64,000 nucleotides of DNA from Candidatus Manganitrophaceae bacterium. Lineage in GTDB: Bacteria; Nitrospirota; Nitrospiria; SBBL01; Manganitrophaceae. Shown piece by piece: positions 7,538 to 26,199 of the stretch (the stretch's first letter is position 1; each line of letters starts with the position of its first letter). The notes under the pieces were generated by a model. It had not been told where the DNA came from and made no database searches. It saw only the letters and a list, made by a program, of their open reading frames with translations. The stretch spans positions 1-64,000 of the forward strand of contig JACQEZ010000013.1 of NCBI GenBank assembly GCA_016200325.1, given 5' to 3'. The position numbers were made by a program, and so were the translations under genes.

Positions 7538-7706
7538 GGCGGAATGACCGAGCGGTCCGTTGCCACGGCAGGCTCTCTATTGCTTGCGAAATAACCCGGT
7601 CTTTTCTCGTCTGACTTCCATCCCCGTTCGTTCCGTTATTCCGGTCACCCACCTCCTGGAATTGATTCAGTCGATGAAAACAGATTCAGGGGACATCTCC
7701 CGTCAT

Positions 7707-7724
7707 TCGGGTGCAGGAACCCGA
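7707..7724 (+). promoter_or_regulatory. Dyad, candidate enhancer site for the NtrC-type regulator
   Basis: TCGGGT-N6-ACCCGA is a perfect 6-6-6 inverted repeat centred about 84 bases before the start site expected from the sigma54 element at 7773. A dyad of the same geometry with an identical right arm occurs at 10788-10805 before the efflux operon. Confidence 0.5.
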
Positions 7725-7772
7725 TAAAGAGGGTTTCGGCTCACGTTGCATCGAAGGAGATGCATCAATAAC

Positions 7773-7788
7773 AGGTCTCGCCTTTGCA
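7773..7788 (+). promoter_or_regulatory. Candidate sigma54 (-24/-12) promoter of the sensor-regulator operon
   Basis: GG at 7774-7775 and GC at 7786-7787 are separated by exactly 10 bases, and the -12 box TTGCA is perfect. The -24 box is weaker (AGGTCTC against TGGCACG). Predicted transcription start is near 7799. Confidence 0.45.
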
Positions 7789-7876
7789 AGCGTCTGCAGG
7801 GGGAAGAAGCGCGCCGGGTTTCAGTCGGTTGATTCCGCCCGCATCGAGAGGCAAGAGGCGCTCAGGAAAGCTCAAC

Positions 7877-10763: not shown

Positions 10764-10787
10764 GGGTAGGGGCTCCCCTTCCGATTT

Positions 10788-10805
10788 TCGGTGCTTTCCA
10801 CCCGA
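10788..10805 (+). promoter_or_regulatory. Dyad upstream of the efflux operon, candidate regulator site
   Basis: TCGGTG-CTTTCC-ACCCGA, centred about 104 bases upstream of the predicted start site. The right arm equals that of the 7707-7724 dyad and the spacer is also 6 bases; the left arm is imperfect. Confidence 0.45.
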
Positions 10806-10874
10806 ACCTACTTTGCCAACAGCAGATCTGCTTCGAAATTACGGCACTCGGCCACTCATTCCGTGAATCGAGGT

Positions 10875-10890
10875 CGGCATATCCCTTGCA
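10875..10890 (+). promoter_or_regulatory. Candidate sigma54 (-24/-12) promoter of the efflux operon
   Basis: CGGCATA-N4-TTGCA: GG at 10876-10877 and GC at 10888-10889 with the required 10 bases between them, and a perfect TTGCA -12 box. Predicted start is near 10901, about 19 bases before the first efflux gene ATG. Confidence 0.55.
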
Positions 10891-10919
10891 AACAGTTGCA
10901 CGATGTGGTCGTGAGAAAA

Positions 10920-12179
10920 ATGCCTTCCTATATACAGCAGGCCGTTTGTGCTTTCGTTGTCCTCTGGGTGCTCCTCTCGGGTGAGGGTCGGGGGTTCGCG
11001 GAGGCGCCGACGTTACGGCTCACGCTGGAGGATTCAATCCGGCTGGCCCGCGAACGGAACTTCGCCGTTGCAACCGCGCGCTTGAACATCGCCGCGAGTC
11101 GGGCCGACCGAATCAGCGCCGGGCTCCTTCCCAATCCCGTTCTGAGCCTGAACGATACTTTTGTTGATCTTCAAATGCCTCGCAACGGCTCGCAGGTGAC
11201 GGCCCGGATCGACCAGCCGATTGAGACCTTCGGGAAGCGAAGGTATCGGATCGAAGCCTCCGAACGTGCGGTCGAGTCGTCCGACTTTCAACACCGCCAT
11301 CAGGTTCGGCAGCTCACACTGGAGGTGGAGACCACCTTCTATCGGATCTTGATGCTGCAGAAAAATCTCCGCCTGGCTGAAGGGAGCGCGGAGCGCTTTG
11401 CAGAGATCCTCCGGGTGAATACGCTCCGTTATCGGAAAGGAGATATTTCGGAGGCCGAGCTGATCAAGATCCGGCTGCAACAGCTCGATTACCAGAACGA
11501 CATTCTCTCGGTCCGGTCGGAAATTCAGGAGCAGGAGAAGAAGTTAAAGGAGCTTCTGGTCCTCGATCCCTCCGCTCCGGTCGAACTGGCCGGGGAGCTG
11601 GAATATCAGGAGCGGAGGGTCGATTTAGAGAACCTTAAAAAAGAGGCGGTCCTGTCACGGCCCGATATGCAGGAAGTGGAAAGCGAATTGCGGCGGGTGG
11701 AGAGCGAAGCGAGGCTGGCGCGGGCGATGCGTTATCCGAATGTGTCGGTGGGGATGGAATACGATACCGTCGGTCCCGATTATCACGGCATGGTGGGGGC
11801 CGGGTTGAGCGTTTCGCTCCCTCTTTTTGATCGAAACCAAGGGGAGGTTCGAAAGGCCAATGTCCGGGTCGAGACAACGAGACTCTCCCGGCAAGAAAAG
11901 GAACATCAAATTCTCCTCGATGCGGAGTACGCTTATCGCGATTTTCTTCAGAAGCGCCTTCAGGTCCTCTTCTTCGAATCGCAGGTCCTTCGCGATGCCG
12001 CCTCTTCGAGGGAGATTGCCGAGCGGGCCTACACGAAGGGGGGGGCGAGCCTCCTGGACCTCTTCGACTCGGAGCGAACGTATAACACCACGCAGCGAAA
12101 TTATCACGAAGCGCTCTTCCAATATCAAATCAGCCTCTTTCAACTCGATTTTGTTTCTGGGAAGGAGATTCTTCGATGA
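10920..12179 (+). CDS. TolC-family outer-membrane efflux protein (CzcC/CusC-like)
   Basis: About 419 residues. A signal peptide occupies about residues 1-27, followed by two outer-membrane efflux repeats rich in coiled coil; the second ends with a SLLDLFDSERTYNTTQ segment typical of CzcC. It should form the outer-membrane channel of a tripartite metal pump with the next two genes. ATG 10920 fits the signal peptide; GTG 10911 is an alternative. Its stop overlaps the adaptor ATG by four bases. Confidence 0.88.
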   Translation: MPSYIQQAVCAFVVLWVLLSGEGRGFAEAPTLRLTLEDSIRLARERNFAVATARLNIAASRADRISAGLLPNPVLSLNDTFVDLQMPRNGSQVTARIDQPIETFGKRRYRIEASERAVESSDFQHRHQVRQLTLEVETTFYRILMLQKNLRLAEGSAERFAEILRVNTLRYRKGDISEAELIKIRLQQLDYQNDILSVRSEIQEQEKKLKELLVLDPSAPVELAGELEYQERRVDLENLKKEAVLSRPDMQEVESELRRVESEARLARAMRYPNVSVGMEYDTVGPDYHGMVGAGLSVSLPLFDRNQGEVRKANVRVETTRLSRQEKEHQILLDAEYAYRDFLQKRLQVLFFESQVLRDAASSREIAERAYTKGGASLLDLFDSERTYNTTQRNYHEALFQYQISLFQLDFVSGKEILR

Positions 12180-13342
12180 AGCGAAATGATCTTGTTATCC
12201 TGTCGGTTTTCCTCGGAGCGCTCCTCTTGCTCTTTTTGCTCTCCTCGTGCGGCCGAACCCCGGCAAGCACCGCTGCCGGCGAAGAGCTTCCCGTGGAGGA
12301 GAAGAAGCCGCCCAAATTGACCGAGAGCGCCGCCAAAGGGGTGATGATCCGAGAGGTGGTCTCCCGGCCGGGCCGGATGGAGATTCTCGTCTCCGGAAAA
12401 ATTCAATATAAAGAAGATCGGGTCAGCAAGGTCTCTTCTCCGGTATCCGGCCGGGCGTCCCGGATCGTCGCAAAATTAGGAGATCGGGTCTCCGAGGGGG
12501 CCCCGCTGATCGTTATCGAAAGTCCGGATGCGGTCTCGGCCTACTCCGATTTCCTTCGAGCCCGTTCCGACCTCGCCTTTTCGGAAAGGGGTTTTCATCT
12601 GGCCGAAGATCTCTTCGAGACCAAGGCGATCTCTCAGAAAGATCTGCAGCAGGCGAAGAACGATTATCTCAAGGCGCAGACCGAGCTCAACCGCGCCAAA
12701 TCGCGCCTCGTGATGTTTTCGCTCGATCCGGAGCGAATTGCAGAGAGCGGCAATCCCTCGGCGCAGGCGCTCTTTGAGTTGAAGGCGCCGATCTCCGGCG
12801 TCATCGTAGAGAAAAATATCACGCGGGGCCAGGCGGTCGGGACCGATCCGGCACAGATCCTCTTTACCGTCGCCGATCTTTCCACTGTCGACTTTGTCGG
12901 CCAGATTTTTGAGAAAGATGTCGCGCGGATCGCCCTCAACGCGGAGGTGGCTGTGACGGTCGACGCTTATCCGAACGAGCGGTTTATCGGAAAAGTCCGA
13001 TATATCGGCGATCAGGTCGACCCCGCCACCCGAACCATTCAGGTCCGAGGAGAGGTTCCGAATCCGGGCGGACGCTTGAAGCCGGAGATGTTTGCGCGGA
13101 TCGCTGTTCAGGCCGCCTCCGCGGAGAAGATCGTGACCGTCCCCTTCAGCGCCGTTGTGGAGGAGGGGGGCAAAAGCTATGTGTTTCGGGTGGCCGCCGA
13201 TCAGACGTTCGATCGCAAAGCGGTCACCCTCGGTCCGCAATGGGGCTCTGAAGTTCAGATATTGGAAGGGTTGAAGAGCGGTGATCGGGTGGTCATCAAC
13301 GGGGTGTTGCTATTGAAAGCAGCCTTCGACGCCGGCTCTTGA
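12176..13342 (+). CDS. RND periplasmic adaptor lipoprotein (CzcB/CusB-like)
   Basis: A 388-residue membrane-fusion protein. The N-terminus ends in a lipobox (LSSC), so it is probably lipid-anchored in the inner membrane facing the periplasm. The biotinyl-lipoyl halves (GDRVSEGAPL; LKAPISGVIVEKNI) flank an alpha-hairpin, then come beta-barrel and membrane-proximal domains (RVAADQTFDRKAVTLG). It bridges the RND pump and the TolC-like channel. It lacks the Met-rich metal motif of classical CusB. Confidence 0.9.
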   Translation: MKRNDLVILSVFLGALLLLFLLSSCGRTPASTAAGEELPVEEKKPPKLTESAAKGVMIREVVSRPGRMEILVSGKIQYKEDRVSKVSSPVSGRASRIVAKLGDRVSEGAPLIVIESPDAVSAYSDFLRARSDLAFSERGFHLAEDLFETKAISQKDLQQAKNDYLKAQTELNRAKSRLVMFSLDPERIAESGNPSAQALFELKAPISGVIVEKNITRGQAVGTDPAQILFTVADLSTVDFVGQIFEKDVARIALNAEVAVTVDAYPNERFIGKVRYIGDQVDPATRTIQVRGEVPNPGGRLKPEMFARIAVQAASAEKIVTVPFSAVVEEGGKSYVFRVAADQTFDRKAVTLGPQWGSEVQILEGLKSGDRVVINGVLLLKAAFDAGS

Positions 13343-13393
13343 GCCGGTGAGCAATCTCAGTATCGACCGCAGTCCATCTGGAGAAAAATAGGT

Positions 13394-16300
13394 TTGGTCA
13401 GACGGATTATTCAATTTGCATTGCAACAGCCGCTCTTGATGGCTTTGTTGACCGTCTCTTTTATCGCAGCGGGGATCCTGGCGTTTCGGTCCCTTCCGAT
13501 CGAGGCCTTCCCCGACGTCACCGACGTTCAGGTGACGGTCATCACCCTCTTTCCGGGCCATGCGCCGGAGGAGGTGGAGAAGCAGATTACGGTTCCGCTG
13601 GAGACCGGACTGAGCGGTCTCCCTCACTCCGTTAAGATGTTCTCGCATACCCAATTCGGTCTCTCTTACATTATCCTGACCTTCGATGATCAGGTTACCG
13701 ATTATTTCGCCCGGCAGCAGGTGCTGGAACGGCTTCAAGGGGCCGACCTCCCCCCCGGCGTCCAGCCGGGTCTGGCCCCCCTCTCCACCCCCATCGGGGA
13801 GATCTACCGATATCGGGTAAAAGGGGAGAATGCTTCTGCGACCGAGCTCAGGTCGATTCAGGACTGGGTGATCACCCGCCACTTGAAGATGATCCCCGGC
13901 GTCGCCGATGTCGTGAGCCTCGGCGGGTTTATCAAACAATATGAAGTCGAGCTCGATCCGCTTCGGATGAAGGCCTACCACGTTTCGCTGCAGCAGGTCT
14001 ATGCCGCCCTCGGTCAAGGGAACAGCAACGGCGGAGGAAACTATCTGGAGCAGGGAGAGCAGCAGTTTTTGATCCGCGGGATCGGTCTGCTCCGATCGAG
14101 CGAGGACATCGGAAATGTTCTGGTGGCGGAGCACGACGGCACCCCGCTGTTCATCCGGGACCTTGCACGAATTCGTGTCGGTGCGGTTCCCCGCCAGGGG
14201 ATCGTCGGCCAGGATCAAGAGGACGATATCGTCACCGGGATCGTGGTGATGCGAAAAGGGGAGAATCCCTCCGAGGTCCTTGCCGACGTAAAAAATAAAA
14301 TGGAGACGCTCAACCGGTCGATCCTTCCCAAAGGGGTTCAGATCGTCTCCTTTTATGATCGAAGCTGGCTGATCAATACAACGCTGAAGACCGTCTTTAA
14401 AAATTTGATCGAGGGCGCCGTTCTGGTAACGATCGTTCTCTTCCTCTTCCTCGGCCGTTTCAGGCCAGCGCTGATCGTCGCGGCGATGATTCCCCTTGCA
14501 TTACTTGCGACCTTTATCGGCCTGAGGTTAAGGGGGATACCGGCCAATCTGCTCTCCCTTGGAGCGATGGATTTCGGGATCATCGTCGACGGCGCGGTGA
14601 TCGTGGTAGAGAATATCTTCAGCGCCCTCTCCCACCAGACGGGAAATCGAGACCGGGATTCGGCACGCGCCGCGGTACTGGAGGCGACCGCGCAGGTCGG
14701 ACGACCTACTTTCTTCTCGATGGTCATCATCATCCTAGCGCATCTGCCGATCTTTACCCTTCAGCGGCAAGAGGGACGGATTTTTGCGCCGATGGCCTAC
14801 ACCATTATTTCGGCATTGGTCGGATCCCTTCTCTTCTCCCTCACCCTCGTTCCGCTCCTTTCATTTTTTCTGCTTCGCGCGGGGGAGGCGGAAAAAGAGA
14901 ACTTGCTTCTCCGGACCTGCAAGCGGATCTACCGGCCGTTATTGACCTCGGCATTGCGCCATAAAAAAGCGGTCCTTGGCGTTGCCATTGGAATGTTGGT
15001 GATCAGTCTGCTCTGCGTGCCGCGACTCGGGAGCGAATTTCTTCCGGAATTAAATGAGGGGACCCTCTGGGTCAATGTCAATCTTCCCCCCGGCATTTCA
15101 GTCACTGAAGTATCGCGGGTCTGCGCCTTGATCCGTGAGACGATCCGAAAGGTGCCGGAGGTGAAGACGGTCATCTCAAAAGCGGGCCGGCCTGAGGATG
15201 GAACCGATCCGAAATTAATCAACATGGCCGAGTTCTTCGTCGATGTAAAACCGCCGGCGGAATGGCGGGCGGGGATGACAAAAGAAAGCATCATTTCCGA
15301 GATCGAGCAATCGATGAAACCGTTGCCCGGAATCGAGCCGAGTTTCTCTCAGCCCATCCGCGACAATATCTTGGAGAGCATTTCACAAATCGACGGGCAG
15401 ATCATCATCAAGGTTTTCAGCCAAGAGAGAGAAGGACTGCAAGAGAAAGCACAAGAGGTCCTGCGGACGGTCGCCGGCGTGCGAGGGGTGGCGCGCGCCT
15501 TCATCGACCGGGCCGGCCAGATACCTCAATTGCAGATCGAGGTTGATCGGGCGCGGGCCGGCCGCTATGGGCTGAACGTCTCCGAGTTCCAGGACTTTAT
15601 CGAAACGGCGCTCGGCGGACGGGTCGCCACGGAAATCTGGGAAGGCGAGCGGCGCTTCGGGGTCGTCGTCCGGCTCCCTGAGGAGGGCCGCAGCAATGTC
15701 GAAGCGGTCCGCAACCTCCTAATCGACACCCCCAACGGGCTACGCATCCCGCTCGATCAAGTCGCCACGATCCATGTGGAGCGGGGAAGCATGAACATCA
15801 GCCGGGAATCGGGAACACGGGTGGCGGCGGTCGGCATCTTCATCCGAAACAGGGATATGGGGAGTGTCGTTCAGGAGATGCAGGAGCGGGTCGGACGGCT
15901 TTCTTTCCCCCCCGGTTATTGGTTGACCTGGGGGGGAGAATTCGAGAATCAGCAGCGGGCGATGGCGCGCCTTCGGGTGATCGTTCCGGTCAGCATTTTT
16001 TTAATTTTTGTGCTATTATTCAATGCTTTTAAATCGGCCAAACATGCATTGTTGATTCTGTTGAACGTTCCGTTTGCCCTCATCGGCGGCATCTTCGCCC
16101 TGCTAATCACCGGCATTCCGCTCAGCGTGTCGGCGGCGGTCGGCTTCATCGCGCTCTTCGGTCAAGCGGTTCTCAACGGGGTGGTCATGGTCAGCTATTT
16201 TAACGAGCAGCGGCGTCCCGGGGAGAGCCGGTTCGAGACGGTGGTGCGCGGGGCCCTCGATCGCCTTCGGACCGTCTTGATGACGGCATTGCTTGCGATG

Positions 16301-16519
16301 TTGGGGCTCCTGCCGATGGCCCTCTCTCACGGGATCGGGTCGGAGGTGCAGAAGCCGTTGGCGGTGGTCATTATCGGCGGACTCCTTTCGGCGACGCTGT
16401 TGACATTAATTGTTCTCCCTGTGTTATATTTGCTGGTCGAACGGGAAAAGGGGACGCCGCGCCTGGAGGAACAGCGGGCCGATGCGGCGGTGGAACCGGA
16501 GCGGGTGAAGGTTCATTGA
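13394..16519 (+). CDS. Heavy-metal RND efflux transporter (CzcA/CusA family)
   Basis: A 1041-residue proton-driven pump with 12 predicted membrane helices and two large periplasmic loops. The TM4 signature DFGIIVDGAVIVVEN has the Asp-x5-Asp-x6-Glu arrangement that marks divalent-metal CzcA-type pumps; the substrate (Zn/Co/Cd/Ni versus Cu/Ag) cannot be settled by eye. The start is TTG 13394 after GGAGAAAAATAGG, about 50 bases beyond the adaptor gene. It is the last gene of the operon controlled by the candidate promoter at 10875. Confidence 0.93.
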   Translation: MVRRIIQFALQQPLLMALLTVSFIAAGILAFRSLPIEAFPDVTDVQVTVITLFPGHAPEEVEKQITVPLETGLSGLPHSVKMFSHTQFGLSYIILTFDDQVTDYFARQQVLERLQGADLPPGVQPGLAPLSTPIGEIYRYRVKGENASATELRSIQDWVITRHLKMIPGVADVVSLGGFIKQYEVELDPLRMKAYHVSLQQVYAALGQGNSNGGGNYLEQGEQQFLIRGIGLLRSSEDIGNVLVAEHDGTPLFIRDLARIRVGAVPRQGIVGQDQEDDIVTGIVVMRKGENPSEVLADVKNKMETLNRSILPKGVQIVSFYDRSWLINTTLKTVFKNLIEGAVLVTIVLFLFLGRFRPALIVAAMIPLALLATFIGLRLRGIPANLLSLGAMDFGIIVDGAVIVVENIFSALSHQTGNRDRDSARAAVLEATAQVGRPTFFSMVIIILAHLPIFTLQRQEGRIFAPMAYTIISALVGSLLFSLTLVPLLSFFLLRAGEAEKENLLLRTCKRIYRPLLTSALRHKKAVLGVAIGMLVISLLCVPRLGSEFLPELNEGTLWVNVNLPPGISVTEVSRVCALIRETIRKVPEVKTVISKAGRPEDGTDPKLINMAEFFVDVKPPAEWRAGMTKESIISEIEQSMKPLPGIEPSFSQPIRDNILESISQIDGQIIIKVFSQEREGLQEKAQEVLRTVAGVRGVARAFIDRAGQIPQLQIEVDRARAGRYGLNVSEFQDFIETALGGRVATEIWEGERRFGVVVRLPEEGRSNVEAVRNLLIDTPNGLRIPLDQVATIHVERGSMNISRESGTRVAAVGIFIRNRDMGSVVQEMQERVGRLSFPPGYWLTWGGEFENQQRAMARLRVIVPVSIFLIFVLLFNAFKSAKHALLILLNVPFALIGGIFALLITGIPLSVSAAVGFIALFGQAVLNGVVMVSYFNEQRRPGESRFETVVRGALDRLRTVLMTALLAMLGLLPMALSHGIGSEVQKPLAVVIIGGLLSATLLTLIVLPVLYLLVEREKGTPRLEEQRADAAVEPERVKVH

Positions 16520-16619
16520 CGGGATGGTTTTTGCGGCGAAACGCTGCGCCCTAATGACCGATCTCGATTGACTTATTTCGTTGACTCACATTCATTGGAC
16601 CACCGGGGAAGGGATCAGG

Positions 16620-17276
16620 ATGCTGCATTGCTTCTGTGATTTTGATGGAACAATCACGGTTCGGGATACGACCGATGCGGTGCTCGAGCAATTCGCCGAT
16701 CCGAAATATTTGGAATGGGAGCAGAAGTGGGAGGCGGGGGAGATCTCCGCGCGAGAGTGCATGGCGCAGCAAGTCCGATTGATTCGGGCGACACCGGAAG
16801 CGGTTCGCGCTTTTGTTCGGGAGATCCCGGTCGATCCGGGAATCCATGCGTTGGTCCAATCGTGCCGCCTCCTGGGAGGAACGTTCACGATTGTGAGCGA
16901 CGGGATCGATTTTCTCATGGAGGAGATCTTGCGCGTCCACCGTCTCGATTCGCTGCCGCACTATGCGAACCATCTTCGTTGGGAACAGCCGATGCAGCAA
17001 GTGCTGACCTTCCCTCACGGAAAAGACGACTGCCGGGGGGGCTGCGGACTCTGCAAATGCGCTCAGATGGATCAGCATGCCGGCGCGGAGGGCGCGGAGA
17101 GGTGGACGGTCTATGTCGGCGACGGCCTCTCCGACCGCTGCGTCGTCCATGAGGCCGATCAGGTTTTCGCAAAAGGGAAGCTGCATACGTATTGCTCCGA
17201 GAAGGGGATTATTCATACCGAGTTCGAGTCGCTCAGCGAGGTGGCGGCGGCGCTGGCCCAGACCGCCCGCGTATAA
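16620..17276 (+). CDS. HAD-IB phosphatase (MtnX-like)
   Basis: About 218 residues. HAD motif I is DFDGT, motif II lies in TIVSDGIDF, and motif III/IV is GDGLSDRC. The closest family I recognise is MtnX-like / phosphoserine-phosphatase-like subclass IB. An internal segment contains clustered cysteines (CRGGCGLCKC), a C-x3-C-x2-C-x-C pattern suggesting a bound metal. It is the first gene of a tight same-strand cluster running to 24391, so it probably acts on a phosphorylated intermediate of that pathway rather than in methionine salvage; no other methionine-salvage gene is nearby. ATG 16620 is chosen over a TTG at 16581 because the conserved fold starts at once. Confidence 0.75.
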   Translation: MLHCFCDFDGTITVRDTTDAVLEQFADPKYLEWEQKWEAGEISARECMAQQVRLIRATPEAVRAFVREIPVDPGIHALVQSCRLLGGTFTIVSDGIDFLMEEILRVHRLDSLPHYANHLRWEQPMQQVLTFPHGKDDCRGGCGLCKCAQMDQHAGAEGAERWTVYVGDGLSDRCVVHEADQVFAKGKLHTYCSEKGIIHTEFESLSEVAAALAQTARV

Positions 17277-17308
17277 AAGCGCGTATATAAAGAAGGAAAG
17301 GGGAGATT

Positions 17309-18685
17309 GTGGGGAACCATTCGGAAGAGGAATTAAGACGTCTGGAGGAAAAATATTGCTCCTACGGCGACACGGTTCATTACGCCGCGACGCCGAAGTT
17401 TTTCAAGTCGGCCGAGGGAAGCTTCCTCTACGACCGGGAGTCGCATCCGTATCTCGATCTGCAGATGTGGTACTCCGCGGTGAACTTCGGATACCGGAAT
17501 AAGGCGATCGCCGATTCGTTAAAGCAGCAGATCGATACCCTTCCCCAGCTCGCCTGTCAGTATCTTCATGAGGAGAAGGTCCTTCTGGCCGAGGAGCTGG
17601 CCGAAGAGTGCGCGAGGGCGTTCGGCATGGAGGGGCGAATTCAGTTTAACGTCGGCGGCTCTCAGGCGGTCGAAGATTCGATGAAGTTGGTCCGGAATGC
17701 CACTGGGAAGAGCCTCTTCATGGCGTTCATGGGAGGGTATCACGGCCGGACGCTGGGGGCGTCGGAGATCACCTCCAGCTATCGATATCGACGGCGGTAC
17801 GGCCATTTTTCAAACCGCGCCCATTTCGTCCCCTTCCCTTATTGTTTCCGGTGTCCCTATGGGAAAACGTTGGACAGCTGCGACTATTATTGTGTTCAGC
17901 AGTTCGAGCGGCTCTTCGACAGCGAGTACCATTCTTTCTGGGATGCCAAAGCGCAGGAGCCCGAGTTCGTCGCCTTCTACGTCGAGGCGGTGCAGGGGAC
18001 CGGCGGGTATGTGATTCCACCCCCCGAATACTTTCCCCGGTTGCAGAAAATCCTCAATGAGCGTAAGATTCTCCTCGTGGACGACGAGATCCAGATGGGT
18101 TTTTTCCGGACCGGAAAGTTTTGGGCGATCGAGCACTTCGGCGTCAAGCCGAACATCGTCGTGTTCGGAAAAGCGATGACCAACGGCATGAACCCGATCT
18201 CCGGTGTCTGGGCCGAAGAGAAGCTGATCTCCCCGGAGCGGTTTCCTCCCGGCTCGACCCATTCGACCTTCGCCTCCAACCCGCTCGGCACGACCGCGGC
18301 CTTGGCGACGATGGAGTGGATCCGGGCGCAGGATTATGAGAAGACGGTTCGGGAGAAGGGGGCTCATTTCCTCGCGCGCCTTCGGGAGTTGAAGGAGCGT
18401 CATCAGACGATCGGCGATGTCGATGGGCTGGGACTCGCCCTGCGGATCGAAGTCACACAGCCGGATCGGTATACTCCGAACCGGTCGCTGACCGATCGCA
18501 TTTTCGAGGCCGGCATGGAAGGGGGAATTCCAACCTCCCTGGGACCGATCGGTTTGGTCCTCGATGTCGGCGGCTATTATAAGAATGTCCTGACCCTCGC
18601 CCCTTCCCTCGAAATCAGCTATGAGGAGATCGATTTGGCGTTTGAAGCGCTCGACTACCTTTTTAAGAAATATTCGGCGGAGTGA
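17309..18685 (+). CDS. Class III PLP-dependent aminotransferase
   Basis: A 458-residue fold-type I aminotransferase of the acetylornithine/4-aminobutyrate/diaminobutyrate group. The PLP phosphate loop is GGSQAVED, LLVDDEIQMGFFRTG carries the cofactor Asp, and the Schiff-base Lys is in VFGKAMTNG. An unusual Cys-containing insert (CFRCPYGKTLDSCDYYC) sits between residues 175 and 200. Class III enzymes typically transfer an omega-amino group. GTG 17309 is preceded by AAGGAAAGGGGAG. It overlaps the downstream hydrolase gene start, indicating a translationally coupled operon. Confidence 0.85.
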   Translation: MGNHSEEELRRLEEKYCSYGDTVHYAATPKFFKSAEGSFLYDRESHPYLDLQMWYSAVNFGYRNKAIADSLKQQIDTLPQLACQYLHEEKVLLAEELAEECARAFGMEGRIQFNVGGSQAVEDSMKLVRNATGKSLFMAFMGGYHGRTLGASEITSSYRYRRRYGHFSNRAHFVPFPYCFRCPYGKTLDSCDYYCVQQFERLFDSEYHSFWDAKAQEPEFVAFYVEAVQGTGGYVIPPPEYFPRLQKILNERKILLVDDEIQMGFFRTGKFWAIEHFGVKPNIVVFGKAMTNGMNPISGVWAEEKLISPERFPPGSTHSTFASNPLGTTAALATMEWIRAQDYEKTVREKGAHFLARLRELKERHQTIGDVDGLGLALRIEVTQPDRYTPNRSLTDRIFEAGMEGGIPTSLGPIGLVLDVGGYYKNVLTLAPSLEISYEEIDLAFEALDYLFKKYSAE

Positions 18686-19650
18686 GTCGGATGCATCTGC
18701 TGGAGGGGAAGGAGAGCGCGCTGGCGCGGATGCCGGGGGCGAGATCGACCGACATTCTCCTTGCCGCGCCTTCGTCCGAAACGTTGATCTACCTCATTCA
18801 CGGTGTGACAGGGACGCCGCTGGAGATGAAATACCTCGGACGGAGGCTTTTTCGGCACGGCTGGAACGTCTATCTTCCGACCCTTCCGGGACACTGCTCG
18901 CGCTATCGCGAGATGGTCGATTCGGATGAAAAGGAGTGGCTGAGCCATGTCGAGATGCAGTTGTCCTATGCGCGCCTGCACTGCCGGAATTTGTTCGTGG
19001 CCGGGCTGAGCGCCGGGGCGCTCCTGGCGCTCGAAGCGTCCTTGCGGGTTCCGGTGGAGGGGATCGGCGTCTTCTCTCCCACCCTTTTCTACGATGGATG
19101 GAATGTCCCTTGGACATTGAAGCTCCTCCCCTTTGGAATTAAATGTCTCCCGAATTTTCTGCAGCGGTGGTTCTTTCACATCGACGGGGCCCCTTATGGA
19201 ATCAAGGACCCGGCCCTTCAGGGCCGGATTCGGGAGGCATATCATCCGGTGGCCTTAATGAAGGGGACGCTGGGGCGGTATTTTCCCCGTGCCCATGGAT
19301 CGGTCCAGTCGCCGGAGCGAAGCCGCTCCTCCGAGGCGGTCGGTTATCCCCTCTTTTCGCTCAAGACGCTGGCCGATCTGGATCGAATGTATGCTCAGGT
19401 GCGCGACCATCTCCATCGGGTCACCGCTCCCACACTGATTCTTCAGGCGAAGGAGGACGATTTCACCAGCCCGAAAAATGCGGAGTTTATCTATCGAGCG
19501 ATCGCGTCGGAGGAAAAAGAGCTCATCCTTCTCGACGATTGCTATCATGTCATCACGGTCGACAAGCAGAGAGACCGGGTGGCGGAAGAAATGGCGCGGT
19601 TTGTCGAGAGACAGAGCCGCCCGTCGGAAAACGATGACTTGGACGTTTAA
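18682..19650 (+). CDS. Alpha/beta hydrolase (esterase/lysophospholipase-like)
   Basis: A 322-residue serine hydrolase. The nucleophile elbow is GLSAGA, the acid is probably in AKEDDFTSP and the catalytic His in DCYHVITVD. The oxyanion HG appears in LIHGVTGTP. Family members include carboxylesterases and monoglyceride lipases; in this operon it could act as an editing or product-releasing thioesterase for the ACP, which is inference. GTG 18682 overlaps the preceding stop; ATG 18691 is the alternative. Confidence 0.8.
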   Translation: MSRMHLLEGKESALARMPGARSTDILLAAPSSETLIYLIHGVTGTPLEMKYLGRRLFRHGWNVYLPTLPGHCSRYREMVDSDEKEWLSHVEMQLSYARLHCRNLFVAGLSAGALLALEASLRVPVEGIGVFSPTLFYDGWNVPWTLKLLPFGIKCLPNFLQRWFFHIDGAPYGIKDPALQGRIREAYHPVALMKGTLGRYFPRAHGSVQSPERSRSSEAVGYPLFSLKTLADLDRMYAQVRDHLHRVTAPTLILQAKEDDFTSPKNAEFIYRAIASEEKELILLDDCYHVITVDKQRDRVAEEMARFVERQSRPSENDDLDV

Positions 19651-19665
19651 AAAAGGAGGGGGGAG

Positions 19666-20907
19666 ATGACACCGCGTCGTGTGGTGGTGACCGGTCTCGG
19701 AATCGTCTCCTCGGTCGGCGTCGGAAAGGACCTGTTCTGGTCGTCCCTCCTGGAGGGTCGATCGGGCATCCGGCCGATTCAACGCTTTGATGCGTCCAAC
19801 TATTCGAGCCGGATGGCGGGCGAGGTCTCGGGATTCGACCCCTTGAACTATCTTACTGCGCGGGAAACCCCCAAGATGGCGCCGGTCACGCAATATGCGA
19901 TGGCCGCTGCAAAGATGGCGGTCGGAGATGCGCAGCTCGATCTCACCCAAGCGCCGGGAGAGCGGGTTGCCGTCGCGATCGGGACCGGGCTGGGGGGGAT
20001 GGGGGTTTATGAAGAGCAGCTCCGGATCTTAATCGATACCGGCAATCCTCGCCGAATTCATCCTTGGGCGGTCCCGTTGGCGACCGCCAATGCCGCCGCG
20101 GCCGAGATCTCGATCGCCTTTGGCATTACCGGGCCGAACATGACGATTTCAACCGCCTGCTCCTCGGGGGCCCATGCGGTTGGCTATGGCCTCGACCTGA
20201 TCCGGCTTGGACGGGCCGATAAAGTGATCGCCGGCGGGGCCGAGGCCTGTCTCCTTCCGGGTGTCTTCGGCGCGTTTTGCTCGCTGCGTGTTCTCTCTTC
20301 TCGAAACGATGCCCCGGAGAGGGCCAGTCGGCCGTTCGACCGAAAACGGGATGGCTTCGTCATGGGAGAAGGGGCCGCCGTCTTGATTTTGGAAGAGTAC
20401 GACGCGGCCCGACGGCGGGGGGCGCCGATCTATGCTGAAGTCGCCGGCTACGGGTTGCTCTCCGAGGCGGCGCACATGGTCAGCCCCGATCTTTCGGGGA
20501 GCGGTCAGGCGCGGGTCATGTCGGATGCCCTTCGCGACGCGGGGCTCTCCCTGGACGAGGTCGATTACATCAACACGCATGGAACCTCCACCCTGACGAA
20601 CGACCTGGTGGAGACCCGGGCGATCAAGATGCTCTTTGGCCAGAGGGCCCACCAGATTTCAGCCAACGCGACCAAGTCGATGCTCGGCCACACGATCGGC
20701 GCGGCGGGGGCGATTGAAGCGGTCGTCTGCGCGCTCACTTTAAAGCACGGCCTGATTCACCCGACGGTCAACTTGGAAGAGCCCGATCCGGAATGCGATT
20801 TGGACTATACGCCGAACAAAGCACGGGAGCGAAGGGTCAAGCTGGCCTTGTCCAATTCGTTCGGTTTTGGAAGCAACAACGCCTGCCTGGCAATGAAGGC
20901 GGTTTAA
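19666..20907 (+). CDS. Beta-ketoacyl-ACP synthase II family (FabF-like)
   Basis: A 413-residue thiolase-fold condensing enzyme. The catalytic Cys is in STACSSGAH and the two His residues in NTHGTST and MLGHTIGAAG, so the triad is complete. It should extend an acyl chain using malonyl-ACP. The carrier protein is encoded 15 bases downstream. The usual fab neighbours (fabD, fabG, fabH) are absent, so this may be a dedicated condensing enzyme rather than the housekeeping FabF. AAAGGAGGGGGG precedes the ATG. Confidence 0.92.
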   Translation: MTPRRVVVTGLGIVSSVGVGKDLFWSSLLEGRSGIRPIQRFDASNYSSRMAGEVSGFDPLNYLTARETPKMAPVTQYAMAAAKMAVGDAQLDLTQAPGERVAVAIGTGLGGMGVYEEQLRILIDTGNPRRIHPWAVPLATANAAAAEISIAFGITGPNMTISTACSSGAHAVGYGLDLIRLGRADKVIAGGAEACLLPGVFGAFCSLRVLSSRNDAPERASRPFDRKRDGFVMGEGAAVLILEEYDAARRRGAPIYAEVAGYGLLSEAAHMVSPDLSGSGQARVMSDALRDAGLSLDEVDYINTHGTSTLTNDLVETRAIKMLFGQRAHQISANATKSMLGHTIGAAGAIEAVVCALTLKHGLIHPTVNLEEPDPECDLDYTPNKARERRVKLALSNSFGFGSNNACLAMKAV

Positions 20908-20922
20908 AAGGGGAATAAAAGA

Positions 20923-21192
20923 ATGGAAGGAATCGATCAGATTGAAGGACAGATCAAAGCGGGGCTGGCAAGCAAGCTCGGCCTGAAGTCGAAGGACGTC
21001 GTGAACAATGCCCGGTTGGTCGAGGATCTCGGACTCGACTCCCTCGACACCTTCGACCTCCTGTTTGATCTGGAGAAGGAGTATGGGGTGGAGATCCCGA
21101 GCGTCGATGCACTCGGCTTTGTGACGGTCGGGGACGTGGTCGCCTATGTTCAAAAGCGGATCGGCGCGACCCCGGCCGAAGGCGCCGCCTGA
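20923..21192 (+). CDS. Acyl carrier protein
   Basis: An 89-residue four-helix carrier. The phosphopantetheine Ser is in DLGLDSLDTFD, followed by DLEKEYGVEIPS. It is slightly longer than housekeeping AcpP and the first helix region differs from the usual fatty-acid ACP sequence. Position between FabF and a FemAB-like acyltransferase implies that it delivers an acyl group to a specialised product. Confidence 0.92.
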   Translation: MEGIDQIEGQIKAGLASKLGLKSKDVVNNARLVEDLGLDSLDTFDLLFDLEKEYGVEIPSVDALGFVTVGDVVAYVQKRIGATPAEGAA

Positions 21193-21278
21193 TCGGACGA
21201 TCCGCTCCAGCGGTGCCGTCGAATGCTTCCCGGCCTGCGTGACGGCCCCCGTTTCTTCCTGCCGATGGAGAGAACCTT

Positions 21279-22433
21279 TTGAAGGCCGATATCGTTTTAA
21301 AGTCGCCTGCCTCTGATGTGCAATTATTTTTAAATCTAATTGAACCGCATTTTTTGGTTGAGGCCTTTCTCGATCATCCGCCGGTGGGATTTTCCCCGCT
21401 CCGGTTCGGGGCGCCCGCCCGGCCGACGCCGGCCTTCCTGATGTCGTTTGGTCTTCTCACCTCGCTCGACTCTTCTAAAAAACGGCTGCTCCGATCGCTC
21501 CCGCTCCTGAGAAATCTAGAGAACCTGCTTCGGATGCCGGCCCTCTTCGTCGGGACGACCGTTTCGGAATATGCGCTCTATCCGCCGTCGCTCGATCCGA
21601 TCCCTTGGATCGAGGCGCTCCTTGAAGCATCGAAGCAGCGGGGGAGCCGACTGATCATCCTCAAGGACCTCCCCTCCGACTCGCCGCTTCTTTCCGAGGA
21701 GGAGAACCGCTTCGCGGCCGATCTTCTCTCCCGTTGCGTCGAGCGCGGCTTCTTTCCGCTCTGGGGACAGGCGCTCGCCTATGTGAAGGTTGATTTCGAC
21801 TCGATGGAGAGCTATCTTCAACGCCAGTCGGCCGCGCGGCGGAAGAACCTGCGGCGAAAGCTGAAGGCATCCGCATCAATCGAGGTCGAAGCGCTGCCGA
21901 CGGGAGACGAGCGCCTCTGCGATCCGGCGTTTGTCGAAACGCTTTTCACCCTCTATATGGACGTCTATAGGCAGAGTGAGATTCACTTCGACCAATTGAC
22001 CCTCCCGTTCTTCCGAGCGATTTTACAAAGCGGTGAGGCAAACGGCGTCGTCTTTCTTTATCGACAGGAAGGGAAGCTCATCGGCTTCAACCTCTGTTTC
22101 GTTCAGGGGGGAAATCTGATCGACAAATATATCGGATTTCTCTATCCGGAGGCGCGTGCGGCGAACCTCTATTTCGTCAGCTGGTTCCACAATTTGGAGT
22201 ATGCCATCCGGCATCGGCTGAAATTTTATGTTGCCGGATGGACCGATCCGGAGGTAAAGCGTTTCCTGGGGGCATCTTTTACTTTCACGCGACATGCGGT
22301 CTATCTCCACAATCCGCTCCTTCGAGCGCTCTTGAAGCGGGTGGGTCGACTGTTCGAAGCCGACAGCAATCAACTGAGGGCGCAGCGCGGGCCCTCGGCC
22401 CTCGAAGCGGACAGCGAAGAGCGGGGTCGATGA
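21279..22433 (+). CDS. FemAB/GNAT-like acyltransferase
   Basis: A 384-residue protein resembling the Acetyltransf_6 / peptidoglycan-biosynthesis FemAB-like group. The second half contains the GNAT-type stretch with KLIGFNLCFV and KFYVAGWTDPEVKRFLGA, where an acyl-thioester site would lie. In this operon the natural donor is the acyl-ACP, which would be joined to an amine; the acceptor is unknown. TTG 21279 follows GGAGAG at good spacing. It overlaps the next gene (ATGA). Confidence 0.65.
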   Translation: MKADIVLKSPASDVQLFLNLIEPHFLVEAFLDHPPVGFSPLRFGAPARPTPAFLMSFGLLTSLDSSKKRLLRSLPLLRNLENLLRMPALFVGTTVSEYALYPPSLDPIPWIEALLEASKQRGSRLIILKDLPSDSPLLSEEENRFAADLLSRCVERGFFPLWGQALAYVKVDFDSMESYLQRQSAARRKNLRRKLKASASIEVEALPTGDERLCDPAFVETLFTLYMDVYRQSEIHFDQLTLPFFRAILQSGEANGVVFLYRQEGKLIGFNLCFVQGGNLIDKYIGFLYPEARAANLYFVSWFHNLEYAIRHRLKFYVAGWTDPEVKRFLGASFTFTRHAVYLHNPLLRALLKRVGRLFEADSNQLRAQRGPSALEADSEERGR

Positions 22434-22786
22434 CGCCGCTGGCGACCCTCTTCTGGGCGTTGAACCTTCTCTTCGACACGGTCGGGCAGCTCTCTTTCAA
22501 GGAAGCATCGGTCCGGCGGGGAGACCGGGAGGGGATCGCCGGCTGGAGACAGATGCTCTCCGCGCGGTGGATCTGGATCGGCATCTTTTCTTTTGCAGCT
22601 GAATTTCTTCTCTGGCTCGCCTTTTTGTCATTGGTCCCCTTGTCGCTCGCGATCTTAGTCGGGAGCGTGAATATCCTTACGGTGATGATCGGCGGCCGGA
22701 TCTTTTTTGGAGAGGCGCTGACCCCCCGCCGGATCGGCGCCGCCCTGTTGATTGCCACCGGAATGATCTTTGTGGGGTGGGGGTGA
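22430..22786 (+). CDS. Small four-helix transporter subunit (SMR/EamA-like), first of pair
   Basis: 118 residues with four predicted membrane helices. TM1 carries FDTVGQLSFK, and TM4 AALLIATGMIFVGWG is EamA-like. It resembles ArnE/ArnF and EmrE-type half-transporters, which work as dimers; an acidic Asp replaces the classic TM1 Glu of EmrE. Its start overlaps the acyltransferase stop, and the second subunit starts at its own stop, so the two probably form a heterodimer that moves the operon product or a precursor across the inner membrane. Confidence 0.75.
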   Translation: MTPLATLFWALNLLFDTVGQLSFKEASVRRGDREGIAGWRQMLSARWIWIGIFSFAAEFLLWLAFLSLVPLSLAILVGSVNILTVMIGGRIFFGEALTPRRIGAALLIATGMIFVGWG

Positions 22787-23157
22787 TGCGGCGGTTCTAT
22801 CTCTTCGGTTTTCTTCTTTTAATCTGTTTCGACACCCTCGGCCAGGTCGGGTTTAAGCTCGCGGCGGTCCGGACCGCCCCCGCCACGTTCGATGCCGACT
22901 GGCTCGTCCGGATCTTCTTAGAGCGGTGGATCTACCTTTCAGTCGCCGGGTATCTCGGCGCCTTTTTTACTTGGATGACCTTGTTGCGCCATGCCCCCAT
23001 CGGTCCCGCCTTCGCCGCCTCCCACTCGGAAATCGTTCCGGTCTTATTGATTTCTGTTTTTTTTCTGGGAGAACGCCTCTCCGGCTTGCAGATCATGGGA
23101 GGTCTCCTGATCGCCGCCGGCCTCGGCCTGTTGGCGATGCGGCGGGAGGAGGGTTAA
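22786..23157 (+). CDS. Small four-helix transporter subunit (SMR/EamA-like), second of pair
   Basis: About 123 residues, four predicted helices, TM1 with FDTLGQVGFK closely matching the first subunit (FDTVGQLSFK), so the pair arose by duplication. The ATG overlaps the preceding TGA by one base (TGATG), implying translational coupling. The longest loop lies between TM1 and TM2. Confidence 0.75.
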   Translation: MRRFYLFGFLLLICFDTLGQVGFKLAAVRTAPATFDADWLVRIFLERWIYLSVAGYLGAFFTWMTLLRHAPIGPAFAASHSEIVPVLLISVFFLGERLSGLQIMGGLLIAAGLGLLAMRREEG

Positions 23158-23158
23158 C

Positions 23159-24391
23159 TTGAGAGAGCCGTTTATCTGCCGCGAGCTTCCCCCCACTGCG
23201 GGGCTTCCGCTCTATTGGCGTGATTTTTTTGGTCCGGAAGGGCGACCCTTGGAAGACGGACTGGTCGAATTTCTGGGGGTGCCGGCCGTCCAGCTGGAGT
23301 GCTCCGGGACCTCCGGCTTGGTACTCGCGTTTGAAGCGCTCAAGCGCTGCAGCCCCCGGCGGACGGTGGTTTTGCCGGGTTATACCTGTCCCCTCGTCCC
23401 GTTGGCCGCGGCACGTGCCGGACTCCAGATTAAGCTGTGCGATATCCGGCCCGATCGGTTTGACTTTGATCTGAGCCATCTCTCTGCGATCTCCAACTCG
23501 GAGACCCTCTGCATCGTACCGACCCATCTCGGCGGCCTCACGACCCTCCTTCCCGGCGTGCTGGAAATTGCGCGGCGGGTCGGCGCATACGTGATCGAGG
23601 ATGCAGCCCAGGCGTTGGGGGCGACTTGGAACGGCCGTCCGGTCGGAACCTTCGGCGATATCGGGATCTACAGCCTCGCCTGCGGAAAGGGACTGACCCT
23701 TTATGAAGGGGGTGTCCTGGTGGCCCGAGATGAATCGATCCGGACGTTGTTGCGCGATATCAGCCGCAAAGAGGTCCTTCCTCACCGGTGGATGGAGTGG
23801 CTCCGCCTGGCCCAGCTATTCGGTTACCGGCTCTTCTATAATCCGTTGGGGCTGTGGCTGACCTACGGTCTTCCGCTTCGGCGCTGGCTGAAGCGGGGCG
23901 ATCCAATCCGGGCGGTCGGCGATCGCTTCGATGAGGATATTCCGATACACCCGCTCGGCGCCTGGCGGAAGGAGATCGGCGCCGCCGCGCTGGAGCGGCT
24001 TCCGGCGGCGCTCGCCTCACAGAGAGAGCGGGCACGGGATCGCATTCTGCAATTAAGTAAGATCGCGGGCCTTCGGGTGATCGAAGATCTCCCGGAGGCG
24101 ACCGGAACGTGGCCTTTCATCATGGTCCTGTTCGATTCGGCGTCGGCCTGCCGCCGCGCCCTCTCCCGCCTCTGGCCGGCCGGTCTCGGGGTCACCCGCC
24201 TCTTCGTCCATCCCTTGACCGGCTATCCGCAGTTGGAAGAAATTGTTCCCCGCGCTTCGCTTCCCCACGCCGAATCGTTTGCCGCCCGGTGCCTGACAAT
24301 TACAAATAGCCCCTGGCTGACCGAACCGGAGTTCCAGTCGATCTGGGAGGTTCTGGCCGATTCTGCGGCGACCCCCGAGCGTCGTTCCTGA
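23159..24391 (+). CDS. DegT/DnrJ/EryC1/StrS-type aminotransferase
   Basis: A 410-residue fold-type I PLP enzyme. IEDAAQALGATWNG is the family motif with the cofactor Asp. The Schiff-base lysine is probably in SLACGKGLTLYEGG, which deviates from the usual SF-H-x-K-x-x-T-x-GEGG. Members aminate keto-sugars or other carbonyl compounds, and some act as decarboxylases or dehydratases. It closes the operon: the start TTG 23159 is adjacent to the preceding stop, and the ureohydrolase gene converges from the other strand 24 bases on. Confidence 0.8.
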   Translation: MREPFICRELPPTAGLPLYWRDFFGPEGRPLEDGLVEFLGVPAVQLECSGTSGLVLAFEALKRCSPRRTVVLPGYTCPLVPLAAARAGLQIKLCDIRPDRFDFDLSHLSAISNSETLCIVPTHLGGLTTLLPGVLEIARRVGAYVIEDAAQALGATWNGRPVGTFGDIGIYSLACGKGLTLYEGGVLVARDESIRTLLRDISRKEVLPHRWMEWLRLAQLFGYRLFYNPLGLWLTYGLPLRRWLKRGDPIRAVGDRFDEDIPIHPLGAWRKEIGAAALERLPAALASQRERARDRILQLSKIAGLRVIEDLPEATGTWPFIMVLFDSASACRRALSRLWPAGLGVTRLFVHPLTGYPQLEEIVPRASLPHAESFAARCLTITNSPWLTEPEFQSIWEVLADSAATPERRS

Positions 24392-24415
24392 TCCCTGCCG
24401 AACCGAGATCCCGCT

Positions 24416-25276
24416 CTATGACAGAATGAGCGCGGCGAGTTTTTGATTGAACCGCTGCTGTTGTTGCTGCTGTTTCTCCAGGTCGGTCGGAAGGGGCGGA
24501 GATTGGCCGTCGAGCCGCGTCAACATTCTTTTCCAGAAGGTGCGGTAGGTGTAGGAGGAGATCTCTCCGGTGACATCGGCCGCGACGAGGAACGGTTTTA
24601 ACACGGCCACGGCGGCGAGGAGGCTCTCTCCTTCCAATCGGCCTTGGTCCCAGTTCGTCTGGACCGTTTCCGGGGAGAGCACATCTTTGTCGATCGAGAG
24701 ATAGACCGGGTGTCGATCCGACTTGAGGAGATCTTCCATCAATCGACGGAGGGTATCGACATCGCTCTCGGACGATTGGATGGAGGAGAGGCCGAGGAGG
24801 CGTGCCAGCCGGGGAGGGGGAGAAAAGCAGACGTAGCGAAGCTTGCCGGAGTAGAGCGGACGGAGATAGTTCTCCAGCAGGTGGCGCGATTGAATGTCGT
24901 TTGAGGTGATACCGATCACCACGACCCGGGAGACAAACGGCAGCCGGCAGACGTGACGGACCCAGGAGCCGCAGTGAATGCCCCAGGGGTAGCGCATGTT
25001 GTCGGGGTGATTGTCGAAAACGATCACCTGCATCGGCCCGAGCGCTTCAAGCCGCTTGATTAGAAGATAGCTGACATGATGAAAGTCGCCGCTGCCGAGG
25101 AAGGTCAGTCGCGGAAGGCCGAGCGGCGCCGACTGGAGTGTCGCTTCGAGCTCCTTCAGGTCGCGCAATGTGCAGCCGTACCGAATCCGCTCCTCCCAGT
25201 CCTGAAGGGAGAAGGAGCGGACGTTCGGGAGGGGGAGTACCGAGCGGTCGAAATCTAAGAGGGCCGATTGATCCAT
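24416..25276 (-). CDS. Arginase/agmatinase-family protein (ureohydrolase fold)
   Basis: A 286-residue ureohydrolase-like protein. Candidate metal ligands are in GSGDFHH, DNHPDN (for the usual DAHxD) and SIDKDVLSP (for SxDxDxxDP), so a binuclear Mn site is plausible. Spacing and the missing Asp-Pro in the last motif make it divergent, closer to uncharacterised arginase-family proteins than to true arginase. The C-terminus contains a run of seven residues that are all Gln except the lead charge (EKQQQQQQ). It converges on the DegT gene, and a functional link to that amine-rich operon is possible. Confidence 0.75.
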   Translation of the reverse strand: MDQSALLDFDRSVLPLPNVRSFSLQDWEERIRYGCTLRDLKELEATLQSAPLGLPRLTFLGSGDFHHVSYLLIKRLEALGPMQVIVFDNHPDNMRYPWGIHCGSWVRHVCRLPFVSRVVVIGITSNDIQSRHLLENYLRPLYSGKLRYVCFSPPPRLARLLGLSSIQSSESDVDTLRRLMEDLLKSDRHPVYLSIDKDVLSPETVQTNWDQGRLEGESLLAAVAVLKPFLVAADVTGEISSYTYRTFWKRMLTRLDGQSPPLPTDLEKQQQQQQRFNQKLAALILS

Positions 25277-25297
25277 GTCTCTTCAAAAGGAGGGGGC

Positions 25298-25366
25298 GAG
25301 AAGGCCATCCCGAGAAGGCTATCCCGAGAAGGCTATCCCGAGAAGGCTATCCCGAGAAGGCTATCC
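25298..25366. repeat. 14-bp tandem repeat, about 4.9 copies
   Basis: The unit GAGAAGGCTATCCC is repeated head to tail at 25298, 25312, 25326, 25340 and 25354 (the last copy lacks one base; the first has C for T at position 9). It sits directly upstream of the ureohydrolase start on the minus strand and is non-coding. Copy number probably varies between strains. Confidence 0.95.
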
Positions 25367-25419
25367 AATGTGCATCGATCTTCCGAGGACTATACAACAG
25401 CCCGGCCCCGCTTGCAATC

Positions 25420-25995
25420 TCACCCCCCCCGGCGTGTCGCCGCTGCGAAGAGAGAGAAGATCCCGAAAAGAAAGAAGAGGCCCGCCGCCGTCCGCCGAAT
25501 CCATTGGGTCTGAACTCTTTCGGAAAATTTTTCCCCAAAAAAGACGGCGAGCCCATCGCTTGCCAGCATGCCGAGGGTCGTCCCGACGGTGACAAAGAGG
25601 ACCGATTGATATTTCGCGGCCAATGCGGCGGTGGCGAGCTGGGTTTTGTCGCCGATCTCGGCCAGAAAGAAAAGAGAGGCGGTGGTGACAAAGGTCCCGA
25701 AGCGGGTGGGCCGCTCCGTCTCTTCGAAGCGATCGGGCTTCAACGCCCAGACGCCGAAGAGAAGAAAGCTGACCCCGACCGCTCCCGACAGAAATGAAGG
25801 GGATATCCGCTCGGCCATCCAGGCGCCGAGCGAGGAAGCGAGCGCATGATTCAAGACGGTGGCAACGAGAATTCCGGCCATGATGCTCCATCGGTCTCGA
25901 AATCGGGCGGCCAGGGAGAAGGCGAGGAGCTGCGTTTTATCCCCCATCTCTCCGAGCGCAACCAATAGAAAAGAGATGAAAATGATATTAATCAA
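25420..25995 (-). CDS. TMEM165/GDT1 (UPF0016) family cation exporter
   Basis: 191 residues, six predicted helices in two homologous halves. Each half has the family motif E-x-G-D-K-T (GEMGDKTQL near residue 15; AEIGDKTQL near residue 111), with an acidic loop between. Bacterial members (MneA) export manganese; eukaryotic members exchange Mn or Ca for protons. It is transcribed toward the ureohydrolase gene; the 144-base gap holds the tandem repeat. A manganese riboswitch would fit upstream, but I could not recognise one. Confidence 0.9.
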   Translation of the reverse strand: MINIIFISFLLVALGEMGDKTQLLAFSLAARFRDRWSIMAGILVATVLNHALASSLGAWMAERISPSFLSGAVGVSFLLFGVWALKPDRFEETERPTRFGTFVTTASLFFLAEIGDKTQLATAALAAKYQSVLFVTVGTTLGMLASDGLAVFFGEKFSERVQTQWIRRTAAGLFFLFGIFSLFAAATRRGG

Positions 25996-26199
25996 TCAAG
26001 GCTCCGTCTCCTTCTCCCCTTCGATCGGGCCGACAGAAGCGGCCGCCTGCCGCGCTTGTTCCCCGTGGGGGGAATATGCGATCATAGAGTATCATTCTAT
26101 TTGTCTTTTTCATCCTTCTTGAGAGAAATTATCACGGGAGGCGTTTGAATTCAATCGGAGATTGACCCGGTCGGTCGATCTTACAGGAGCAGGTAGGAG

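Follow-up and report, generated by a model that had tools for sequence, protein, structure and literature searches.

A widespread, horizontally mobile ten-gene set in a Candidatus Manganitrophaceae genome with a possible role in making and exporting an acylated amine

A 64,000-nucleotide (nt) stretch of DNA from a Candidatus Manganitrophaceae bacterium (assembly GCA_016200325.1, contig JACQEZ010000013.1, positions 1 to 64,000), referred to here as the window, carries a set of ten genes that almost certainly constitutes one functional pathway. The set comprises nine plus-strand genes (16620-24391) and a facing minus-strand gene (24416-25276), recurs in reshuffled form in at least eight phyla, and is horizontally mobile, a feature absent from the original prediction made for this region from its sequence alone. 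There is an even chance that this horizontally spread, modular cluster makes and exports an aminolipid-like amphiphile, either an acylated amino-alcohol or an acylated diamine. The more specific proposal of an undescribed amphiphile class falls somewhat short of even; here one modular pathway, shared horizontally by at least eight phyla, would export an N-acylated amino-alcohol or diamine, one amine of which would derive from a guanidine.

Gene content and conservation across genomes

The nine plus-strand genes encode, in order, an MtnX/phosphoserine-phosphatase-like HAD-IB phosphatase (HAD; 16620-17276; Pfam/NCBIfam), a class III pyridoxal phosphate (PLP) aminotransferase-fold enzyme (AT3; 17309-18685; Aminotran_3, E 7e-74), an alpha/beta hydrolase of thioesterase or acyltransferase type (18682-19650; Hydrolase_4), a FabF-type beta-ketoacyl-ACP synthase (KS; 19666-20907; fabF TIGR03150 above cut-off), a dedicated acyl carrier protein (ACP; 20923-21192; PP-binding), a FemAB-like double-GNAT transferase (21279-22433; PF04339 (FemAB_like) and PF13480 only), subunits 1 (22430-22786; weak EamA and ArnE matches) and 2 (22786-23157; EamA above cut-off) of an SMR/EamA-like four-helix half-transporter pair, and a DegT/ArnB-type aminotransferase with an N-terminal PPTAG motif (23159-24391; PF01041, E 5e-42). 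Gaps within the nine genes are at most 86 nt, and three pairs overlap: AT3 and the hydrolase by 4 nt, FemAB and SMR subunit 1 by 4 nt, and the two SMR subunits by 1 nt. These open reading frames, their coordinates, strand and spacing all agree with the original prediction of nine same-strand genes with overlaps or short gaps, and its family names are agreed by both Pfam and NCBIfam. The tenth gene encodes an arginase/ureohydrolase-fold enzyme (PF00491) on the minus strand, facing the nine.

Conservation across distant genomes, named beforehand in the original prediction as the criterion for a single pathway, was observed at several levels. Three genomes of another family in the same class keep the same gene order, and the arginase-like gene is also opposed in two of the three, those with a contig reaching far enough; identity to these relatives is 86-87% for AT3 and mostly 45-70% for the remaining genes. 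A contig scan with AT3 alone (best 80 loci), together with phylum-wide matches, yielded 95 distinct loci, window included, a number that is a lower bound on spread, the true spread being larger because the scan took the best 80 loci. Role profiles built from the window genes found, near AT3 in these loci, HAD in 92, the hydrolase in 64, SMR in 42, FemAB in 35, ACP in 34, KS in 31, the arginase-like gene in 26 and DegT in 24; such locus frequencies are not population estimates, and the KS and ACP counts are the least specific because their profiles come from large families. Member order is shuffled among the 95 loci, AT3 is about 60% or more identical in the loci kept from other phyla, and SMR subunit 2 is paired with subunit 1 in relatives. 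Loci with at least six roles were found in Nitrospirota, Acidobacteriota, Gemmatimonadota, Omnitrophota, Pseudomonadota, Desulfovibrio, Riflebacteria and a melainabacterium.

Whole-genome co-occurrence supports a functional unit independently of gene position. Among 396 Nitrospirota genomes, AT3 is present in 20, all of which have a strong HAD match, as against 1 of the 376 genomes without AT3 (Fisher p 9e-33); the arginase-like gene occurs in 12 of the 20 and in 1 of the 376, the same extra genome as for HAD (p 6e-17), and FemAB in 14 of the 20 and 9 of the 376 (p 1e-15), with p values that ignore genome relatedness. In four of these genomes (G036, G255, G271 and G352) the arginase-like gene is on a different contig from AT3. 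The original prediction placed this ureohydrolase-like gene opposite the operon and outside it; the facing position is correct, but its recurrence in relatives makes it a conserved member of the set despite its strand. That unrelated genes merely neighbour one another here has an extremely remote chance of being true, and chance clustering was rejected in view of the conserved order, the shuffled recurrence in many phyla and the genome co-occurrence.

A 455-aa protein whose C-terminal domain is Omp85-like turns up repeatedly in the vicinity of HAD, AT3 and the hydrolase, the core genes, in nine Nitrospirota loci (Nitrospira where the genus is recorded; L013, L014, L016, L017, L018, L111, L113, L115 and L117).

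Modular structure

Nesting of the genes was judged on 46 untruncated loci with room on either side. In these, FemAB is always accompanied by SMR and the hydrolase, DegT and the arginase-like gene are always accompanied by FemAB, and ACP and KS travel together, statistically independent of FemAB. This pattern suggests a core of HAD and AT3, an added hydrolase, an export/amide module, and a separate acyl-supply module.

Predicted functions of the gene products

AT3 is the most conserved member of the set. Its PLP lysine, K288, is found in 100 of 100 family sequences; the C-terminal substrate-carboxylate arginine of all five aligned PDB relatives is, in 99 of the 100, a threonine (Thr429). This replacement leaves it in doubt whether AT3 is an aminotransferase of the ordinary glutamate-dependent type. 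The catalytic residues of HAD (D7, D9, T11, S93, K146, D168/D172) are conserved, and its nearest PDB relatives are MtnX and phosphoserine phosphatases. A role as MtnX in methionine salvage was rejected, given scores far under the cut-offs of the NCBIfam equivalogs (114 bits against 292, and 92 bits against 303) and that HAD almost never parts from AT3; this constant partnership points to a small phosphorylated substrate. Serine, histidinol and serinol arise by transamination of a keto-phosphate and subsequent dephosphorylation. In the rhizobitoxine pathway, serinol is formed by RtxA in a like manner, a keto-phosphate being transaminated and then dephosphorylated to the amino alcohol (PMC3222319), whereas the phosphatase here is a separate HAD protein and the likeness is by reaction logic alone.

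Within the acyl-supply module, the catalytic C165, H305, K337 and H342 of the window KS are intact, and the Cys-His-Lys-His set is kept in all KS sequences except three decayed tandem partners. These belong to Omnitrophota loci (L029, L047 and L075) in which a tandem KS pair adjoins HAD and AT3 and one KS of the pair, without the catalytic Cys and His, is chain-length-factor-like. The KS of the window is a second FabF copy; a role in housekeeping fatty-acid synthesis was rejected, as the genome has its own fabF elsewhere, adjoining an ACP. The serine of the DSL motif is conserved in the ACP, and other ACP-like genes are present in the genome. The nucleophile elbow of the hydrolase reads G-x-S-x-G, or G-x-C-x-G in eight cases.

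Fusions and insertions in versions of the set from other hosts argue for a genuine acyl chain carried by ACP. In loci of the Legionella group, acyl-AMP ligase, ACP and hydrolase are fused into one 1000-residue protein, which suggests that the hydrolase takes the chain from ACP. The Rhizobium plasmid version holds a fatty-acid desaturase and a cyclopropane-fatty-acid synthase inside the set, and many Acidobacteria loci have an AMP-binding ligase and an MGDG (monogalactosyldiacylglycerol)-synthase-like glycosyltransferase nearby. KS and ACP show weak NCBIfam similarity to cispentacin enzymes. The acyl-chain chemistry foreseen in the original prediction is supported by the fusions and by the Rhizobium desaturase and cyclopropane synthase.

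For FemAB, a sequence search of the PDB gave no significant match, with at most marginal similarity to MprF/FemX-type proteins, and an AlphaFold2 (AF2) model with a predicted local distance difference test score (pLDDT) of 82 has FemX, MprF and a streptothricin aminoacyl-tRNA-dependent synthase as its nearest folds (Z 16-18, 241-282 residues). That FemAB moves a chain made by FabF and ACP, as first proposed, is left in doubt by its independence from ACP and KS and by its fold, which is nearest to aminoacyl-tRNA transferases. The PLP lysine of DegT, K177, is conserved in 27 of 27 sequences, and ArnB is among its PDB matches; with AT3, this makes two aminotransferase-family genes confirmed by Pfam and NCBIfam, in line with the amine-forming enzymes originally described. 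In one Legionella-group locus (L076) FemAB and DegT are one protein, a fusion suggesting that FemAB acylates the DegT-made amine.

SMR subunit 1 has conserved D16-T17, Q20 and K24; in most of the SMR proteins, helix 1 contains an Asp that appears to align with the Glu of EmrE. Proton-coupled SMR cation exporters have Glu at this position, and lipid-type SMRs often have Asn (PMC9574504). The ArnE/F-like pair of the original prediction stands as a paired small transporter; flipping of a lipid-linked molecule is less certain, as the helix-1 acid fits a cation at least equally well.

The AF2 model of the arginase-like protein (pLDDT 93.5) has a ureohydrolase fold (Z ~20). Its metal-site motifs GSGDxHH, DxHPD and DKD are invariant apart from one Ser, and the metal ligands H66/H67, D88, H90, D92, D196 and D198 are invariant. 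A PDB sequence search with this protein was without a match, and no HDAC-like deacetylase fold was among the 50 best matches listed for it. Just upstream of the gene lies a short tandem repeat (25300-25366) with a unit of about 16 nt (gagaaggctatcccga).

Proposed pathway and alternatives

From the observed linkage and co-occurrence of the genes, their fusions, and the folds and intact catalytic residues of their products, we infer the substrates, the order of the steps and the end product as follows. AT3 and HAD would form a small amine from a keto-phosphate by transamination and then dephosphorylation, DegT would add or make an amine, and the arginase-fold enzyme would expose an amine masked by a guanidine group or a related C-N bond. 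The dedicated KS and ACP would build the acyl chain, which in other hosts would be loaded by the acyl-AMP ligase, and the alpha/beta hydrolase would take it off ACP. FemAB would then make an amide on the DegT-made amine, and the paired SMR proteins would export the cationic product.

Several points weigh against this scheme, beginning with the inferred nature of every substrate and of the product. FemAB is not a PF13444 protein, unlike the characterized aminolipid N-acyltransferases (PMC11631085), and its chain donor is unproven; an aminoacyl-tRNA donor is possible because of its independence from ACP and KS and the likeness of its fold. AT3, with threonine replacing the usual C-terminal arginine, may not be a standard transaminase, and its donor or reaction may be unusual. 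Since KS is absent from most loci and no hydrolase was detected close to AT3 in about one third, the cluster may have several products, related to one another; contigs are also truncated at about half of the loci.

The transferase fold lends itself to a different reading, rather unlikely in our estimation, in which the set modifies the cell envelope with cationic groups: an amino-lipid carrier, an aminoacyl-tRNA-dependent FemAB and DegT would put amino groups on envelope lipids or polymers, working as a mixture of Arn, MprF and AlmEFG and altering surface charge. The nearness of FemAB to FemX, MprF and aminoacyl-tRNA transferases agrees with this, as do the resemblance of DegT and the SMR pair to ArnB and ArnE/F, the MipA/OmpV genes in two plasmid versions and the two-component genes near many loci. 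However, in the set we saw neither an undecaprenyl-phosphate glycosyltransferase nor ArnA nor an ArnT-like gene, helix 1 carries Asp and not the Asn frequent in lipid-type SMRs (PMC9574504), and the Rhizobium desaturase and cyclopropane synthase suggest a dedicated acyl product.

An acyl product need not be a membrane lipid; an improbable alternative is that a small amphiphilic molecule is secreted, for instance as a signal, surfactant or metallophore. This would suit the paired SMR exporter, the patchy distribution of the mobile set, which is carried on plasmids and here on an inserted block, and the adjoining CzcCBA-type efflux system of the window, although an RND neighbour occurs at only one other locus and nothing specific to signalling or metal uptake accompanies the genes. 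Iturin-type synthases contain a class III aminotransferase domain that acts on beta-ketoacyl-ACP. By analogy, AT3 could turn a beta-ketoacyl-ACP made by KS and ACP into beta-aminoacyl-ACP in a beta-amino fatty acid pathway, for which the KS and ACP without a dedicated ketoreductase, the class III aminotransferase and the weak likeness to cispentacin enzymes could be cited. This is decidedly improbable, since most loci have AT3 and HAD without KS or ACP, and the constant presence of HAD beside AT3 speaks for a substrate that is small and phosphorylated.

Comparison with known systems

An acylated amine as product invites comparison with the OlsB/OlsA aminolipids (ornithine, glycine and glutamine lipids), in which acyl-ACP chemistry and an amine likewise yield an amphiphile. 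In those systems PF13444 N-acyltransferases act on ready amino acids, and participation of fatty acyl-AMP ligases (FAAL) is not established (PMC11631085), whereas the present set has a FemAB_like PF04339 protein together with a dedicated KS and ACP, two aminotransferases, a phosphatase, an arginase-fold enzyme and an exporter. In the Arn system for 4-amino-4-deoxy-L-arabinose (Ara4N)-lipid A, the DegT aminotransferase ArnB is similarly accompanied by a small two-part flippase, ArnE/F; acyl chemistry, a class III aminotransferase and HAD set the present genes apart, and neither ArnA, ArnC, ArnD nor ArnT is among the ten genes by Pfam and NCBIfam. FemAB shares the double-GNAT fold of the MprF/FemX aminoacyl-tRNA transferases (Z 16-18) without the membrane flippase domain of MprF. 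A comparable combination of ACP, ligase, hydrolase and FemAB genes is associated with exosortase A (XrtA). An XrtA cluster was dropped as a candidate, as the NCBIfam scan was without a FemAB or exosortase-associated hydrolase match.

No published pathway with this gene set was found in open papers, in keeping with the original statement that no named pathway has it, and apparently no product has so far been assigned to the set. Its conservation and mobility make it likely that the set is selected in soil, groundwater, plant-associated and host-associated bacteria, and among its several natural variants are ones that cultivable Rhizobium and Agrobacterium carry on plasmids. Should the product prove to be a new aminolipid or surface amine, the short list of non-phosphorus bacterial lipids would gain another class.

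Mobility and neighbouring genes

The gene set is horizontally mobile. In the window it lies on an 18.6 kb block between guaA and treY (~7538-26072) that is absent from congeners, three of which (G002, G004 and G005) have guaA and treY only ~140 bp apart; FemAB is missing from five congeners, and insertion in this genome is simpler than repeated loss. The block ends have no direct repeats of at least 9 nt and no border tRNA, and no integrase was seen among the annotated genes. The AT3 tree mixes phyla: one Gemmatimonadaceae sequence, for example, falls among those of Thermoanaerobaculia, and the Legionella group has a chlamydial sequence as its neighbour. Related genes are found on plasmids of Rhizobium, Agrobacterium and Bartonella, with MipA/OmpV neighbours in two plasmid versions. 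The Bartonella plasmid (L128, 11965-17968) carries a reduced version with AT3, FemAB and the arginase-like gene, neither HAD nor hydrolase being annotated beside it; AlgX-like and MBOAT O-acyltransferase genes come next on the opposite strand.

Besides the ten genes, the block contains a two-component system, a CzcCBA-type RND efflux system and a GDT1 antiporter. The two-component system, a histidine kinase and an NtrC-type response regulator on the plus strand (7784-10763; Pfam), is probably linked with the gene set, and the density of two-component genes close to these loci is roughly double that at greater distance. Together with the RND genes it occupies 7784-16519, directly upstream and 100 nt from the HAD gene. 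RND efflux was rejected as a member of the set, being near one other locus only; RND homologues in congeners are just 36-47% identical to that of the block. A GDT1-family divalent cation antiporter (25423-25995) adjoins the arginase-fold gene and was likewise rejected, as it is not near other scanned loci, with one lying nearby in the Rhizobium version (L127).

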